From: a virus
Length of the DNA stretch: 28,342 bases
Virus record (IMG/VR): IMGVR_UViG_3300042691_026406
Coordinates: 1 to 28,342 of that record
Strand: one strand, 5' to 3'
Shown here: one piece after another, positions 1 through 9,304 of the stretch
Layout: the number at the start of each line of letters is the position of its first letter
How positions within the stretch are numbered: position 1 is the first letter of the stretch
Translations under genes and position numbers: made by a program
Notes under the pieces: model-generated
What the model saw: the letters and a program-made list of their open reading frames with translations, nothing else
The model's database searches: none
What the model was told of the DNA's origin: nothing

Positions 1-782
1 CTACTACCACCACTCAAGAATTTTACGATGGTCAGTGGGTGACTATCAAAGCTGGTTTTATTGATTTTCCTAGCCTTGCTGCTTGCATTGAATACTTAGT
101 CACGCGCTGGTACAAAGACTATCGTCAATTCAAGGGCATTAATCATGCTCCCAATCGTTACGCTGCGGCACGAATGCTCAAGGAGCAAAGCTATGCCACT
201 GATCCAGCGTATCCAGCAAAGCTGTCTAAGCTCATGAAAGAATATGCTCCTGAGAGCACTGCTGTTACTATGATCGGCCCCAAGAAACGTCCGCAAGATT
301 TTGGCTTCAAGAAAGGCGATTCGCATTTGATTGTGAATGATGCCGTTGAGACCATGAAAGCTTTCTCTTTTGAAGGGAAGCTTCTATGGGAAATCCCTTG
401 TCTTGCTCGCGGACAATATAGTGATTTTGAATGGAAGATCACAAATTCTGACACTCCTGTAGGTCTGTACAAGATCGGCGCCATCTACAAAGACTACGAA
501 CGAGTGAGTGATAAGCCTGCTTATGATCGCACGCTCATGGCTTATGGCTGGTACAGCTTTGACATGGTGGAACTAGAGAATCAAGAAGCAGGCAATGGGC
601 GAGCCGGAATTATGGCCCATGGCGGCGGCAGTGCAAATGGTTGGCCTGGTGCATGGGCGCCCAAACAGCCCCTCGTCCCCACTCATGGCTGCATTCGCTG
701 TCACAATATTGACCTTCGCGATAAAATTCTTCCGCTCTCTAAAACTGGCACAATCTTTATTTCAGTTTTTCAGGAAGGCTGA
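1..782 (+). CDS. Glucosaminidase-like / L,D-transpeptidase (YkuD) cell-wall enzyme, 5' partial
   Basis: The frame is open to the left window edge, so the GTG at 39 is probably an internal codon and the true N-terminus lies outside. Counting residues from that GTG, positions 1-70 look like the C-terminal half of a FlgJ/GH73 glucosaminidase: an aromatic 'F-x-D-F-x-S' strand, then helices, then the hallmark 'YATDPAYPAKLSKLM'. Residues ~95-245 form a YkuD domain with His194-Gly and the catalytic 'THGCIRC' motif (His216, Cys218, Arg220). YkuD enzymes act on peptidoglycan stem peptides, and GH73 enzymes cut the glycan strand. In a phage the pair suggests host wall degradation at lysis or wall remodelling. 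No signal peptide can be judged because the start is missing. Its stop overlaps the next start (TGATG). The YkuD call is strong. The GH73 call rests on its non-catalytic half, since the catalytic Glu would lie upstream of the window. Confidence 0.82.
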   Translation, partial: TTTTQEFYDGQWVTIKAGFIDFPSLAACIEYLVTRWYKDYRQFKGINHAPNRYAAARMLKEQSYATDPAYPAKLSKLMKEYAPESTAVTMIGPKKRPQDFGFKKGDSHLIVNDAVETMKAFSFEGKLLWEIPCLARGQYSDFEWKITNSDTPVGLYKIGAIYKDYERVSDKPAYDRTLMAYGWYSFDMVELENQEAGNGRAGIMAHGGGSANGWPGAWAPKQPLVPTHGCIRCHNIDLRDKILPLSKTGTIFISVFQEG

Positions 783-3617: not shown

Positions 3618-3952
3618 TTGAAACTCAAGCCAAGATTGATGAAGGCATTGCCTTCTACAAGATAATACTTGCTATTGTCAGGCTCTGTAATCAAAACGTC
3701 ATATTGTCCTTGTTCAGTGATGCCGCTGGTGCCAGATGCTTCAAGGCGAAGCTTGAAGATGCCACTCGCTTGACTTACATACGTTACGGCAAAATCAGCA
3801 AGCTTATTGCTGCCTAGCCGATCATATAGCTTAGATGCTACGGTGTACCCGCTCATATTAACGGGCACACCAGAAGCGTCTTTATATTGCAACTGCAGCT
3901 CGAACGTTGCGCCTTGATAAATCGTAATATCGTGCTTACCTGGCGTAATCAT
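3614..3952 (-). CDS. Ig-like / baseplate-upper-protein-like small structural protein
   Basis: This 112-residue, all-beta protein has the pattern 'KHDITIYQGATFELQLQY', then 'GVPVNMSGYTVASKLYD', then 'GQYDVLITEPDNSKYYLVEG'. It resembles the N-terminal Ig-like or BppU-like domain often found in phage baseplate or fibre-attachment proteins. No further domain is present, so it may be a stand-alone adaptor that links fibres to the tail. It follows the 407-residue structural protein with a gap of ~29 bases that holds a TACAAT box, and it overlaps the next gene by four bases (ATGA). The fold assignment is by pattern only. Confidence 0.65.
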   Translation of the reverse strand: MITPGKHDITIYQGATFELQLQYKDASGVPVNMSGYTVASKLYDRLGSNKLADFAVTYVSQASGIFKLRLEASGTSGITEQGQYDVLITEPDNSKYYLVEGNAFINLGLSFK

Positions 3953-3981: not shown

Positions 3982-5205
3982 TTAAGTGATTTCCACCCAG
4001 CCGATCATGCCAAGAGCTTTAGCGCTGACTGCACTATCGACGGTCAAGATAAGAGTGTCGCTTTCACCAGAGGCATTTTGCCCCAAGGCAAGACGAATGG
4101 CCACTGCAATGTCGTAATTATTCGCACTGCCTTGACTGACAAAGCCTGCGTCAACCACTGTGCCGCCTGTTGCAGTGCCACTAGTTGTCACCTCCACATT
4201 GCCCCTTTGATTGTCCGCAGCACTCCAGGTGACGTCACTTAGCGTTGGATTTAAACGCAAGCGCCACAACACCACATCGCTAGAAGCAGTGGCAGTGGAA
4301 ATCCTTACGGGAAGAATGACATTACCAGTGCGACCACTTGCCATGCGAATGCCAGCAGTGATGCGTTCGCCAGATGTGTTTGGAACAGAATTCAGATCGT
4401 GATTCACTGAATACACGGCACCATCTGGCTCATATCCCCCCTCACTAAGAATGCTGCTGCAAATTTGCTTCATGGTGCGTCCTGAAGCTTGAGCAGAGGC
4501 ATTATGAATGCGATAGGACAATGGCAAAATAGCCGTTGTCATATATGCACTAGTCAATGTGTTGTAATGATTAAATTCATGGCAATAAATGATCTCGCCA
4601 TTAACGACAAAACCAGTCCTCACTCGCCCCACGCCAAGCCATTCAAGATCGGCAGTGAAAATTTGAGCTTTAGAGAAGTCGAGCGAATCAAGAGTGTTAA
4701 TGTTCCACGCTGATTGATCAACTACATTTTCAACAACTGCGCCAGATGTGAAGCTTCTGACGACCATTTGCAACGTAGTGCCACTTGCCCTAATCATCAC
4801 TCCATTCTGATCATCAAAGAAGCCCACTTCTTGAATAAGGCCTGCTGTTGGCGTGGTACCAGCAAAGCTTTGCATGATCATCATGCTCTTTCCTGGTTGG
4901 TACGGGAAGTATTGCTTGGTTCTACGCAGCACTGTATCGCCAGACGCAGTGGTAGTCGTCAAGGCAGTGCTGCTTTCGTTTGTTAAATATGTGACAACGC
5001 CTCCATTAGAAATACGATCAAACCATTGATCAGCACGCTTGTTGTAACGCATCGTGCTATCAAAAAGCGTATAGGGAGCGCTCGTGCGAGCACGCCCAAA
5101 AGCATCAACTGCTCCGCTATCTGGGCCAGTCTTCAAGATTTGCCCGCGATAATCAGCCTCAATGTGAGTTTCAAACTGTTCGCCCCCAGCAATTATTTGT
5201 CCCAT
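3982..5205 (-). CDS. Conserved phage structural protein, probable tail or fibre component
   Basis: I choose the ATG at 5205 (407 residues, 'MGQIIAGGEQFETHIEADYRG') over an upstream TTG at 5238, because the 'MGQII' start matches the usual N-terminus of this family and the TTG lies next to a terminator. Recognisable conserved stretches are 'VDAFGRARTSAPYTLFDS', 'QYFPYQPGKSMMIMQSF', 'LEWLGVGRVRTGFVVNGEI', 'CHEFNHYNTL' and 'ICSSILSEGGYEP'. I know this pattern from structural proteins of cyanophages and other aquatic phages, where it is often labelled a virion or tail protein of unknown function. It is the first gene after the terminator at 5236-5263, so it probably has its own promoter. Structural role likely; exact position in the virion unknown. 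Confidence 0.75.
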   Translation of the reverse strand: MGQIIAGGEQFETHIEADYRGQILKTGPDSGAVDAFGRARTSAPYTLFDSTMRYNKRADQWFDRISNGGVVTYLTNESSTALTTTTASGDTVLRRTKQYFPYQPGKSMMIMQSFAGTTPTAGLIQEVGFFDDQNGVMIRASGTTLQMVVRSFTSGAVVENVVDQSAWNINTLDSLDFSKAQIFTADLEWLGVGRVRTGFVVNGEIIYCHEFNHYNTLTSAYMTTAILPLSYRIHNASAQASGRTMKQICSSILSEGGYEPDGAVYSVNHDLNSVPNTSGERITAGIRMASGRTGNVILPVRISTATASSDVVLWRLRLNPTLSDVTWSAADNQRGNVEVTTSGTATGGTVVDAGFVSQGSANNYDIAVAIRLALGQNASGESDTLILTVDSAVSAKALGMIGWVEIT

Positions 5206-5225
5206 GGAAAAGAATGCTTTCTTCC

Positions 5226-5231
5226 ATTGTA
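5226..5231 (-). promoter_or_regulatory. Candidate -10 box (TACAAT)
   Basis: On the minus strand TACAAT occurs directly after the terminator U-tract at 5236-5243 and 20 bases before the preferred ATG at 5205. A promoter is expected here because the preceding unit ends in an intrinsic terminator. No -35 match is visible. Confidence 0.3.
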
Positions 5232-5235
5232 CTAG

Positions 5236-5263
5236 CAAAAGAAAAGAGGCCTTTCGGCCTCTT
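5236..5263 (-). terminator. Intrinsic terminator after the 43-residue gene
   Basis: On the minus strand a perfect 8-bp stem (AAGAGGCC at 5256-5263 with GGCCTCTT at 5244-5251) closes a GAAA tetraloop and is followed by TTTCTTTTG. It begins two bases after the stop codon of the 43-residue gene, so it ends that transcription unit. Confidence 0.88.
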
Positions 5264-5265
5264 GA

Positions 5266-5397
5266 TTATTTGCCTTGTCCTCGCGGAAGCTTTCGCCCGT
5301 GCGAAGCTTTACTATTTGCTCCATTGCCTTGGCGCGTCTTCTTACGACGATTAGGAGAATGAAGCTTTTGCCCGTTAATGGTTTTACTTGATGCCAT
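5266..5397 (-). CDS. 43-residue highly basic protein
   Basis: Translation from the ATG at 5397 gives 43 residues. It opens 'MASSKTINGQKLHSPNRRKK' and ends 'GRKLPRGQGK', with about 13 Lys/Arg residues and no acidic residue. Three facts support a real gene: its ATG overlaps the stop of the 103-residue gene by one base (TGATG); the frame runs to a TAA that is followed at once by a strong terminator; and the neighbouring minus-strand genes are packed the same way. Its charge suggests nucleic acid or capsid-lumen binding, but that is inference. The 'RRKKTRQGNG...RGQGK' pattern recalls small basic proteins in cyanophage genomes, from memory only. Confidence 0.75.
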   Translation of the reverse strand: MASSKTINGQKLHSPNRRKKTRQGNGANSKASHGRKLPRGQGK

Positions 5398-5708
5398 CAG
5401 GACCAGGGCAGGCCAGTGCCAGTGGTGGGAGTGCGCTGTTGTTCGATTTGTGCGGCGAGAGCAGCTTCAATTTCTGCCACTTTCTCAGCGCCAAACTTTT
5501 CCTTCACCCAGCCAGTGACAATTTCAGGCGTGAGTTGTGCGTAAGGAATGGCATCATCTTCGTCAGGAGCTTCGAGACCAAGACTGCCATAGGCCGAGCC
5601 GGCATAGGTGCCATCATCAGCGGAAATTGTATAGTGAACCGTGTAGACGATTCCATCAGCAAGTTGGCGCTCAAGATTAGCGACGCCCCATTGGTAAGTG
5701 ATTGCCAT
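5397..5708 (-). CDS. Conserved cyanophage small protein (DUF7936-like)
   Basis: This 103-residue protein has the pattern 'W-x-V-x-NLER-x(3)-DG-x-VYTVHY-x-I-S-A-DDGTY-x-GSAYGS', then an acidic segment (LEAPDEDD), 'PYAQLTPEIVTGWVKEKFG', a helix, and a terminal 'TGLPW'. I associate this pattern with a small conserved family of unknown function in cyanophages (I believe DUF7936; not checked). It looks like a compact beta sheet followed by helices. It is the first of two genes in a unit bounded by terminators at 5744-5773 and 5236-5263, and it overlaps the 43-residue gene (TGATG). The Shine-Dalgarno sequence is poor. Real gene: high confidence. Function: unknown. Confidence 0.8.
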   Translation of the reverse strand: MAITYQWGVANLERQLADGIVYTVHYTISADDGTYAGSAYGSLGLEAPDEDDAIPYAQLTPEIVTGWVKEKFGAEKVAEIEAALAAQIEQQRTPTTGTGLPWS

Positions 5709-5743
5709 GATTAAAAAGAATGGTCTTTGCTAGTTTAACAATG

Positions 5744-5773
5744 GAAAAGAAAGCGGCTTCTTCGGGAAACCGC
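5744..5773 (-). terminator. Intrinsic terminator after the 1153-residue fibre gene
   Basis: On the minus strand an 8-bp stem (GCGGTTTC at 5766-5773 with GAAGCCGC at 5753-5760, one G-U pair) closes a five-base loop and is followed by TTTCTTTTC. It lies about 70 bases after the fibre stop codon, beyond a second hairpin at 5798-5830. Confidence 0.83.
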
Positions 5774-5797
5774 CAAGTAGAGAAGAGTCAAAGACTG

Positions 5798-5842: not shown

Positions 5843-8800
5843 CTACAACTTCAGCAGTCCAAGCTGTTTTAGCGCTTTAACAACATCGTTGATGCGGTAG
5901 GCAGTTGTGCCAAGGTTACCGGTGAAGGTTGAGACGTCGTTAACAGCAGTACCTGTGCCAGCGGTGAAGCCTGTGGCCTCACCTGTACCAGCAGGTTGTG
6001 CGATGGCGTCTGTGCCATAGAAACCCACACCACCGCGAACCGTCAGGTCCTGCGCGATCTCTGCATTGCCATTAATGTTGGTAGTACCAGTGAGATCAAT
6101 GGTGGCGCTGGGGATGCTGTATTGATAAACGGTGTCGTTGGTGGTCCCAACAATGTAAAACTTAGTGCCGTCAGGTTTAACAAACAAACCAATTGGCGAA
6201 GTCTCTTGAGCCGCAACACTAAATGCGGTTACAAACGATGCAGTGGTGATGTCCCATGGCGTTGTTAAATTGTAGATATTTACATCATCTCCACTAGTTC
6301 CCATAATAAATAGTCGGGAACCATCGGCGCTAAAACTAATTGAACTTACGCCGGTCTCTTGTGCTAAAACACTAAAAGAACTAGTTAATACTGCTGTTGA
6401 AGCATTCCAGGCAGTGCTTAATGTGTACTGATAAACAGTATCATTTGCGCCGCCTAGTATGTATAAAGTCAAACCATCAGGCTTTAAAAATACTCCAATA
6501 GGCGCTGTGTCTTGCGTGCCAACCGCAAACGAAATGCTGTCGTAAGATGCACTTGCAATACTCCAGGGGGTGTTCAACGAGTATTGATAAACAGCATCAG
6601 TTGCGCTGCCTATAACATAAAGTTTTTTCCCGTCATTTCTAAAATAAAGGTCATTCGGAGCTATATCCTGTGCTGACACAGAGAACACAGTGACATAAGT
6701 TGCAGTGGAGACGTTCCAAGGAGTTGACAGAGTGTATTCATTAATATCATTTCCCGAGTCGCCCAGGACAAACATCTTGCGTCCATCAGGACTGAAGAAG
6801 AGGCCAGTGGGGGCGATCTCTTCTGCTGCAACCGAGAAAGAGATACTGTCGTAAGTGGCACTGGTCAGATCGACGTTGCTGATGATGGTATCGCCGGCCA
6901 CATGCGCCAAGGCAGCAGGTGCGGTGGTGGCAAGGCCCAAGCGACCAGTACTGGTGATTCTCATCCGCTCCGTCGGAGAACTCGCCCCGTCCGCAGTAGT
7001 GCTGAAGACCAAGCGGCCTGGCATGTCATTAGTGTCAGGGGTGCCGTCTACAAAAGCAGTAATCCCTGCCGCTCTTGAAGTCAGATCAACGCCATCATAA
7101 GATGCAAATTCAATAGATCCTATAGAGTCGTTGTCTTGACTTATAACAGGCGCAGCTTTTGTCCCTCGCGCCTTCCCTATTGTTAGATAATTACCAAAAC
7201 TGCTATCACTAAAACGAACTAACGTTAGAGATCCGGCGTTCCCATCATTACCTTCGAGTTGAATACCTCCAGATGGAGAGCCTACCTGACGACTACTAGA
7301 CGTACCAACTAAGAGCCTGCCGCTGGAGTCGATGCGGGCGCGTTCACTACCGTCAACGGAAAAAGCCAAGTTGGAATTAACGCCTGCATTGGTTGGATCA
7401 GCGGCGAGTTCAATAGAGTTACTGGTACTACCTGCGCTTACAAGGTATCCAGATGTTCCGCCATCTTCACTGCCTACGCTCCATCCAGATGTGGCATTAC
7501 CGTAGCCAACGACACTGAGAGCATTGCCAGGCGTCGTAGTGCCAATCCCTACGCTGCCTGCCGAGGTGATGTGCAGGCGTGCGTTGCCGCTTGTGTACAG
7601 GGTCGTTTCGGTAAGACCAGTCGATGCTGTAGGCGTTACACTTAATCCGTCGATTAAAGCGCCAGTAATATCGGAAACCGCCAATCGCAAAGATGACGTG
7701 CCTCCAGCAGTTGATGTAGCAACTGCATCAATAACAGCGTGAGTCTTTGGTCCAGCATTTGAAGCGTCAGCGCTGTAGAAACTGAAGCGGCCCCAAGGGG
7801 TTGTTGTTGACCAATCGCTGGCGTTTGTTGTAGTAGCAATCCTCAGTTCAGTTGGAGTAGGGGTGGCACTGCCAGTTGCAGATGACAAATGCAGCAACGT
7901 GGCAGGCGCACTAGTCCCTATGCCCACGAGCCCTGCCGAGGTGATGCGCAGGCGTTCGCTGGCCGAGGATGCTCCAGAAGGTGTGGTACTAAAAATTAGT
8001 GTACCTGGCGTGCTTCCGCCACTTACTGAGCCTTCGACAGCAGAGGAAATGCTGCTAATAACACCATAAGCAGAGCCATCATATCCTTGAAAAAAGATGG
8101 TTCCGCAGGTACTCGTTGCATTGTTTCCGCTTGATCCTCGAACAAGAGAAAATGTTGATGCCCCGTTGGTTCGAAGGATAGCTCCGTTTGCGGTAGAGGC
8201 GGAGGTTCCTTCAATGTAAAAGCTAGGTGTACCGCCAGCCAAGGCAACTGCACTAGAAGTCCCCACCAACAGCCTGCCGCTGGAGTCGATGCGCAGTCGT
8301 TCGTTAGTCCCCGTGTTAAACGCAATATTGTCAACAGTGCGGGCACCAGTAGACCGAGTGACGTTTAGCCATGCAGTGGATGTGTTGAACGCATCATTGA
8401 TGCCCTCAAAACGAAGAATGCTTCCGTCTGCGCGGATGCGCCAATATTTCTCATCTACGCCCGCGTCAGTTTCTTCTAGCAGAACGGCAGGATCTGTTGA
8501 TGCAATGTGTAAATCATCAAGAGGTGCGCTGGGGGCAATCGACGAAGCGGTGCCAAGTCCCACTCTCCCTGTAGAGCTAACAAATAATCTGCCAGTGCTA
8601 TTTGTCGCCAGTGCCACTGTATTGGCGGCGCTAAGATAGAGGCCGTTTGTTGGCGCTCCGCTGCTGGTAGGAATGAAGCTGGCGGCGGTGCTAGTGCCAG
8701 TGGAGGTAAGATTCTGACTACCAAAATTAGGGCTAATCTTTGTGCCAGCAATTGCTGCAGATGCATTTACATCGGCATTGGCAATGGTGCCATCAGCAAT

Positions 8801-9304
8801 CATTGTGCTGGTGACAGTGCCAGTGTCGCCAGTGGTTACAACCGTGCCAGTGATGTTGGGCAGAGTAATTGTCTGATCAGCCGTAGGATTTGCAACAGTT
8901 AGCGTGGTCTCAAAGCCATCGTCAACGCTGCCTTCAAAAATTAAAGTGGCTGCTGGTCCCATCGTCAGGGAACCAGTCATCGTATCGCCAGTGACGTTTA
9001 CAAACTCTCCACTTTCACTGCGCCATGCACTTCCATCCCACACCTTAAATACATAGGTGCCGCCACTATTATCCAGCCATTGCTCGCCAATTGAATTACC
9101 AGAGGTGCCACCACTTGCTGGCGACATATTAGGCGCTCCACTCCCCACATGAACGGGGCCAATCTTTACTACATTGCCAGCAGCGTCCTTAAAAAACAGA
9201 CCAGGACTGCCACTTGCCGTATTGATGGCCAATTGGCCATCTGCCATGCCAGAAGCCTGAGGGCGCTTGTTGACAGTGGACGAACGAAGATGCTTAAGAG
9301 TCAT
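5843..9304 (-). CDS. Long tail fibre with a five-unit propeller-like repeat
   Basis: 1153 residues. The N-terminus 'MTLKHLRSSTVNKRPQASGM' plus 'DGQLAINTASGSPGLFFKD' (to ~residue 50) is a typical virion-anchoring start. A 'YVFKVWDGSAWRSE' module follows at ~80-95, then 'TLIFEGS...TITLPNITGTV' (~105-160), shared with the next fibre. Residues ~180-810 are shaft-like with returning 'RIDSSGRLLVGTSS' and 'ITSAG-x-VGIGT' units. Residues ~813-1068 hold five ~50-residue repeats with the core 'FSVxAQExxPxGLFFxPDGxKxYVxG-x(3)-D-x-VYQY-x-LSTPW', suggesting a beta-propeller that could bind a receptor. The end 'YRINDVVKALKQLGLLKL' is a C-terminal helix common in cyanophage fibres. The gene follows a 66-base gap with small inverted repeats. 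No chaperone or peptidase domain is seen. Confidence 0.8.
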   Translation of the reverse strand: MTLKHLRSSTVNKRPQASGMADGQLAINTASGSPGLFFKDAAGNVVKIGPVHVGSGAPNMSPASGGTSGNSIGEQWLDNSGGTYVFKVWDGSAWRSESGEFVNVTGDTMTGSLTMGPAATLIFEGSVDDGFETTLTVANPTADQTITLPNITGTVVTTGDTGTVTSTMIADGTIANADVNASAAIAGTKISPNFGSQNLTSTGTSTAASFIPTSSGAPTNGLYLSAANTVALATNSTGRLFVSSTGRVGLGTASSIAPSAPLDDLHIASTDPAVLLEETDAGVDEKYWRIRADGSILRFEGINDAFNTSTAWLNVTRSTGARTVDNIAFNTGTNERLRIDSSGRLLVGTSSAVALAGGTPSFYIEGTSASTANGAILRTNGASTFSLVRGSSGNNATSTCGTIFFQGYDGSAYGVISSISSAVEGSVSGGSTPGTLIFSTTPSGASSASERLRITSAGLVGIGTSAPATLLHLSSATGSATPTPTELRIATTTNASDWSTTTPWGRFSFYSADASNAGPKTHAVIDAVATSTAGGTSSLRLAVSDITGALIDGLSVTPTASTGLTETTLYTSGNARLHITSAGSVGIGTTTPGNALSVVGYGNATSGWSVGSEDGGTSGYLVSAGSTSNSIELAADPTNAGVNSNLAFSVDGSERARIDSSGRLLVGTSSSRQVGSPSGGIQLEGNDGNAGSLTLVRFSDSSFGNYLTIGKARGTKAAPVISQDNDSIGSIEFASYDGVDLTSRAAGITAFVDGTPDTNDMPGRLVFSTTADGASSPTERMRITSTGRLGLATTAPAALAHVAGDTIISNVDLTSATYDSISFSVAAEEIAPTGLFFSPDGRKMFVLGDSGNDINEYTLSTPWNVSTATYVTVFSVSAQDIAPNDLYFRNDGKKLYVIGSATDAVYQYSLNTPWSIASASYDSISFAVGTQDTAPIGVFLKPDGLTLYILGGANDTVYQYTLSTAWNASTAVLTSSFSVLAQETGVSSISFSADGSRLFIMGTSGDDVNIYNLTTPWDITTASFVTAFSVAAQETSPIGLFVKPDGTKFYIVGTTNDTVYQYSIPSATIDLTGTTNINGNAEIAQDLTVRGGVGFYGTDAIAQPAGTGEATGFTAGTGTAVNDVSTFTGNLGTTAYRINDVVKALKQLGLLKL
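6100..6868 (-). repeat. Five tandem ~50-residue protein repeats (propeller-like)
   Basis: Residues ~813-1068 of the 1153-residue fibre. Each unit carries 'PDG' or a close variant, then 'K-[FLM]-[YF]-[VI]-[VIL]-G', a Gly/Asp turn, '[VI]-[YN]-x-Y-x-[LI]', and (in four units) 'TPW' or 'TAW'. The repeats have diverged at the DNA level but keep length and spacing. Confidence 0.75.
7314..7336. repeat. 23-base direct repeat, copy 1
   Basis: Identical to 8271-8293. Both copies lie inside the fibre gene and encode the 'RIDSSGRL' unit. They could serve as recombination points for module exchange. Confidence 0.7.
8271..8293. repeat. 23-base direct repeat, copy 2
   Basis: Identical to 7314-7336. The coding context is the same ('RIDSSGRLLVGTS'), while the sequence on either side differs. 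Confidence 0.7.

Follow-up and report, generated by a model that had tools for sequence, protein, structure and literature searches.

The 43-codon frame on the minus strand at positions 5266..5397 (stop codon included) of the window, i.e., of the whole stretch of 28,342 nucleotides of IMG/VR virus record IMGVR_UViG_3300042691_026406 analysed here, is almost certainly a genuine gene that codes for a basic microprotein of the phrog_516 family, and it very probably constitutes the second cistron of a two-gene unit with the gene for a DUF7936 protein. Its product, MASSKTINGQKLHSPNRRKKTRQGNGANSKASHGRKLPRGQGK (43 aa), has a computed pI of 12.0 and a charge of +11.7 at pH 7. That so short a frame represents a real gene had been proposed in the sequence-only reading, and this is borne out by the kept reading frame, by purifying selection and by the match to phrog_516. 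In particular, the comparison of 14 distinct 43-codon sequences (91 pairs) gave a mean pN of 0.062 versus a mean pS of 0.370 (pN/pS about 0.17), and the frame, inspected for stops and frameshifts, was found intact in the relatives. An RNA element instead of a protein was rejected as an explanation, since a search of the window at the Rfam gathering scores yielded no matches; at E up to 1 there was a single match to ctRNA, which falls far below its gathering score and lies on the terminator hairpin.

The window protein matches phrog_516 over its full length (E = 9.3e-7, and 2.6e-7 over positions 1–48 of 48), and a search of its own genome with the phrog_516 profile recovers it with E = 9.9e-9. 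It shares the core and the C-terminal motif of this family, no difference being seen, and is thus a member of an already catalogued but little-noticed family, which is listed in PHROGs v4 with unknown function. In our alignment A5, 49 of the 63 members match phrog_516, the best with E = 7.6e-27. Family members are cationic, about 36–52 aa long and built around the core K-x-T-x-Q-G-x-G, with RGQG followed by no more than about three residues at the C-terminus, a motif definition drawn from the family sequences compared here and not from published work; the window protein, with the core KKTRQGNG and the ending LPRGQGK, fits the pattern K.T.QG.G followed by RGQG-K/R next to the stop. Eight positions (K19, Q23, G24, G26, K36, G40, Q41 and G42) are invariant across the 63 sequences, and among 153 distinct sequences K/R make up 29.5% and D/E 1.4% of residues, with no tryptophan at all. 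The motif pattern had 167 matches in 1.04 Mb of loci, which had been chosen as expected holders of the microprotein gene or its neighbours, and none after one base shuffle per locus. The AF2 model of the microprotein contains neither a helix nor a strand of at least three residues (pLDDT 70.5, pTM 0.31), and the protein is predicted to be disordered. No papers were found on phrog_516, DUF7936, small basic proteins of cyanophages or syn9 gp96, and no description of the family was recognised in the titles and opening lines of abstracts of the wider literature.

The first gene of the unit (5397..5708, minus strand) codes for a protein of 103 residues that belongs to DUF7936 (PF25590, phrog_7802; E = 3.3e-37, 127.8 bits, positions 1–103 of 103, gathering score of 27 passed). 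Its AF2 model (pLDDT 85.6) is a fairly confident fold in which three strands are combined with one long helix. The best Foldseek match of this fold in the PDB had an E-value of only 0.49, and VIA-align gave its top Z score of 6.4 to LptE chains, a level that according to the tool possibly reflects only a common arrangement; the 21 matches in BFVD at E up to 0.001 are all DUF7936 proteins or nameless. The pairing of the two genes in other phages, for which the sequence-only reading had suggested a search, is indeed recurrent: the microprotein gene lies directly 3' of the DUF7936 gene in 65 of 80 IMG/VR loci, these being the best 80 of 99 relatives. Among the 15 loci missed, L152 carries a microprotein with a variant ending as judged by eye, while the other 14 code for DUF7936 proteins with at most 67.1% identity to that of the window, some of them with little downstream sequence. 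The family PF25590 thus also includes more distant loci without an adjoining microprotein.

In the window, the TGA stop of the DUF7936 gene shares its A with the ATG of the microprotein gene (TGATG, an overlap of one base), and the microprotein is probably translated there by stop-start coupling. Since the spacing varies among the 67 pairs measured (one shared base in 18, a 3-base gap in 25, a 23-base gap in 22 and a 70-base gap in two), this overlap is limited to the closest group of the window.

The gene pair had also been supposed to be bounded by terminators, and both hairpins were found and are conserved. The downstream intrinsic terminator (5236..5263, minus strand), two bases 3' of the microprotein stop, consists of an 8-bp hairpin at 5244–5263, AAGAGGCC-GAAA-GGCCTCTT, and a U tract, with a folding energy of −14.3 kcal/mol (z = −3.5) that was reached by none of 200 shuffles. 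This hairpin recurs in 77 of 80 sequences, the window included, and 7 or 8 of the 8 stem positions are paired in 38 of 41 distinct downstream sequences, both sets comprising related contigs and some contigs twice. In addition, there are compensatory changes in the stem (pair 5: G-C 31, A-T 5; pair 6: G-C 19, A-T 12, G-T 7). The upstream terminator (5743..5774, minus strand; stem 5752–5774), recognised by scan, folding and comparison of upstream sequences, has −12.9 kcal/mol (z = −2.65), a stability equalled by 4 of 200 shuffles, and is common to close relatives while being absent from some. By itself the consensus terminator scan is weak evidence and unconvincing, because it gave 9 sites in a 6-kb stretch versus 6.1 expected; it is the conservation that makes the terminators convincing.

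Between the upstream terminator and the DUF7936 gene, i.e., where a promoter had been expected (between 5709 and 5743), comparison of close relatives revealed a promoter-like or leader block TTAAACTA(A/G)CAAAGACCATTC at 5718..5738 on the minus strand (block common to close relatives: TTAAACTAACAAAGACCATTC), nearly invariant in most of the upstream sequences of close relatives compared and putatively the promoter of the pair. A further promoter-like element, TACAATNNAAGAAAG, lies at 5217..5231 on the minus strand, after the downstream terminator and before the next gene, and is likewise conserved in close relatives; it has two matches in the window with at most one mismatch versus 0.07 expected, one upstream of a 418-aa frame and the other upstream of an LtfC-like gene starting at 3952. 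We infer that both elements act as promoters, and the DUF7936 and phrog_516 genes very probably form a small operon that has terminators, and probably also a promoter, to itself. The 418-aa frame is the next gene (3982–5238, minus strand); it probably does not begin with the TTG at 5238 given in the list of frames but with the ATG at 5205, which follows TACAATNNAAGAAAG and gives 407 residues.

Members of the family occur in phages of several kinds. By tblastn with the window protein, the siphovirus S-CBS4 was found with 73% identity over 86% of the query, together with the T7-like phages S-RIP1, S-CBP1, S-CBP2, S-CBP3, S-TIP28 and DSL-LC07, with S-EIV1 and with the T4-like phages ACG-2014g, S-SRM01 and P-SSM3; several of these matches have E-values above 1, membership resting in their case on the common motifs. 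When a T4-like member served as query, 450 out of 50,697 phage records were matched with an E-value of 1 or less, all of them bearing the labels Synechococcus (358), Cyanophage (63), Prochlorococcus (24) or Marine virus (5); baseplate gp6, used for comparison, matched 2,320 records (Synechococcus 373, Cyanophage 61), the two lists being compared as totals and not record by record. These counts are lower bounds, as low-complexity masking by BLAST probably trims the microproteins, which is suspected because a Syn5 query aligned over only 55% of its length to its own genome. The phrog_516 form was seen only in records labelled as cyanophage, marine virus or uncultured phage, and it is present in single copy in all 19 IMG/VR records that were searched as a whole (20 loci, two of them in one record), which had been chosen for known loci of the family or its neighbours. 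A scan of genome contigs for host homologues, using two narrow peptide patterns, found as sole relative one phrog_516-type gene on a contig of a Sphingobacteriales MAG, which is probably a misbinned phage contig.

Near-universality in cyanopodoviruses is ruled out by P-SSP7, S-SBP1, 9515-10a, SS120-1 and P60, in which neither profile A5 (E up to 1) nor A10 (E up to 10) nor the pattern scans found a match, and a looser listing of basic open reading frames gave no recognisable member; the microprotein is therefore dispensable or replaced in some lineages. Nor did either profile match the non-cyanobacterial records inspected (two Rhizobium, one Mesorhizobium, Vibrio D531 and Roseobacter CRP-227). 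Among the T7-like records fetched, six out of seven lack an annotated gene at the microprotein locus, so that surveys of annotated genes will have missed it there.

A second group of proteins, in which TSIG replaces TRQG, widens this distribution. Syn5 (gp19) and S-CBP42 were matched weakly by A5 (E = 7.8e-4 and 0.005) and on inspection turned out to be of this type, with the same YRGQGK ending. A scan for the TSIG variant gave 78 loci, grading into sequences with SRPKNKHKKR ahead of the ending, and tblastn with TSIG-type queries found matches in Pelagibacter (SAR11) and Methylophilales phages, as well as a single short match at the C-terminus in a Roseobacter phage (E = 0.7). The TSIG-type proteins of Syn5, S-CBP42 and the SAR11 and Methylophilales phages resemble phrog_516 in length, K-rich start, T..G core and C-terminal YRGQGK but differ in having TSIG rather than TRQG and a different middle part. 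Two of seven TSIG-type sequences tested were matched by the phrog_516 profile (E = 0.0004 and 0.0016), and a profile-profile comparison gave a probability of 96.7 and E = 4e-10, an E-value that ignores the common basic composition. As both families are basic, a shuffle control was run, in which 39 of 57 TSIG sequences outscored all 1,140 shuffles and the remaining 18 did not. On these comparisons, common ancestry of phrog_516 and the TSIG-type proteins is likely, though not proven. Strict specificity for cyanophages is countered by the TSIG form in SAR11 and Methylophilales phages.

The genomic contexts are equally varied. In T7-like phages the exonuclease gene is preceded by the microprotein gene in 77 of 80 loci, the latter overlapping the exonuclease start in nearly all cases and lying about 200 bases off in a few; as for the three exceptions, the microprotein gene is missing from L192, reads frame-shifted in L229 and in L247 codes for a variant ending as judged by eye. 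In S-TIP28 the gene precedes that for SSB. In T4-like phages it was found by pattern upstream of gp25 in 26 of 42 loci, three of the 16 misses (L266, L269 and L273) being regained by profile; several of the 16 are loci with little upstream sequence. In S-EIV1 it stands before the lysozyme gene, and on other contigs it adjoins lysozyme or other small genes. In siphophages and T4-like phages it is located among tail and baseplate genes. In several of the loci L042–L092, the microprotein gene is followed by a small gene whose product begins much like a signal peptide (e.g., MLKTLIASGVVGIASVLALPAHA; 29 of 71 downstream neighbours). The earlier suggestion that the role is linked to the virion region is thus not upheld, given the homologues in the replication module of T7-like phages, near gp25 and near lysozyme, and the neighbourhood provides no argument for packaging.

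With respect to function, binding of DNA or RNA, as previously proposed, is plausible from the composition. The microprotein would act in trans inside the infected cell, on a target present in several bacterial groups, as suggested by its charge, the few acidic residues and lack of tryptophan, the invariant motifs near a fixed C-terminus, the single copy and the variety of modules in which the gene is found. The basic chain would bind RNA or another nucleic-acid-rich target, and the two glycine-glutamine motifs would give specificity. Tails that bind rRNA are typically disordered basic chains with motifs of glycine, glutamine, arginine and lysine, and RNA, possibly ribosomal, would for this reason be the first choice, in the form of rRNA or mRNA. 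Taken as a whole, a cationic microprotein that binds RNA or other nucleic acids inside infected cells is the explanation that we tentatively prefer, and nucleic-acid binding within the cell, judged from sequence features, is a possibility to be held with some reserve. No similarity names a target, as there was no consistent match of the microprotein family in Pfam and the profiles A5 and A10 matched none of 177,635 PDB sequences at E up to 10. Mimicry of ribosomal proteins, with segments of uL4, uL15, bL27 and bL20 as candidates, was dropped in view of these empty PDB searches and of the lack of any ribosomal family among the Pfam matches, a resemblance in function being possible.

The position next to the exonuclease gene in T7-like phages and before the SSB gene in S-TIP28 would also suit a small DNA-binding protein that assists in replicating or recombining phage DNA, which is nonetheless unlikely, as the copies in siphophages and T4-like phages reside amid tail and baseplate genes and not replication genes. 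Similarly improbable is a host-takeover peptide that inhibits one conserved host protein or machine such as RNase E, RNA polymerase or the ribosome. Its presence across unrelated phages of common hosts, in one copy per record, and a motif invariance exceeding what charge alone would require are in line with such a peptide; however, the PDB searches revealed no mimicry of a solved protein, and the relatives in SAR11 and OM43 phages make a target confined to cyanobacteria less likely. That the microprotein is a minor component of the virion, packaged along with the DNA or the tail, as its strongly basic character and the tail-region position in the window and S-CBS4 might indicate, has only a slim chance of being correct in view of the replication-module position in T7-like phages. 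In S-CREM2 the only candidate relative, a weak match to a TSIG query (37630–37716, E = 2), has no entry in the virion table of 52 proteins (PMC10665884), which is weak evidence against packaging, the relationship being weak and tryptic mass spectrometry nearly blind to such proteins. Indeed, no tryptic peptide of the window protein exceeds 8 residues, and peptides of at least 9 residues are lacking in 31 of 63 family members, versus 0 of 42 for DUF7936; tryptic proteomics thus cannot settle packaging because the peptides are too short.

Cyanophages and SAR11 phages target the most abundant bacteria of surface waters, and the maintenance of a tiny protein by selection in unrelated phages that infect them suggests a common need during infection. 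It is conceivable, if rather speculative, that phrog_516 and the TSIG-type proteins make up one RGQG microprotein superfamily that is spread over the siphophages and the T4-like and T7-like phages of picocyanobacteria, SAR11 and OM43 and provides all of them with a takeover factor directed at RNA or the ribosome, mostly missed by standard gene calling and tryptic proteomics.

Two further observations concern other parts of the window. The frame at 39–782 (plus strand) matches Glucosaminidase with E = 2.4e-6, just under the cut-off, and the L,D-transpeptidase family YkuD with E = 1.9e-5, over the cut-off, and might possibly code for a two-domain cell-wall enzyme, perhaps cut by the start of the window. 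The frame at 5843–9304 (minus strand) codes for a tail-fibre protein of 1153 aa, the C-terminal part of which matches beta-propeller models (SGL over the cut-off, WD40 types under it), an unusual end for a fibre.
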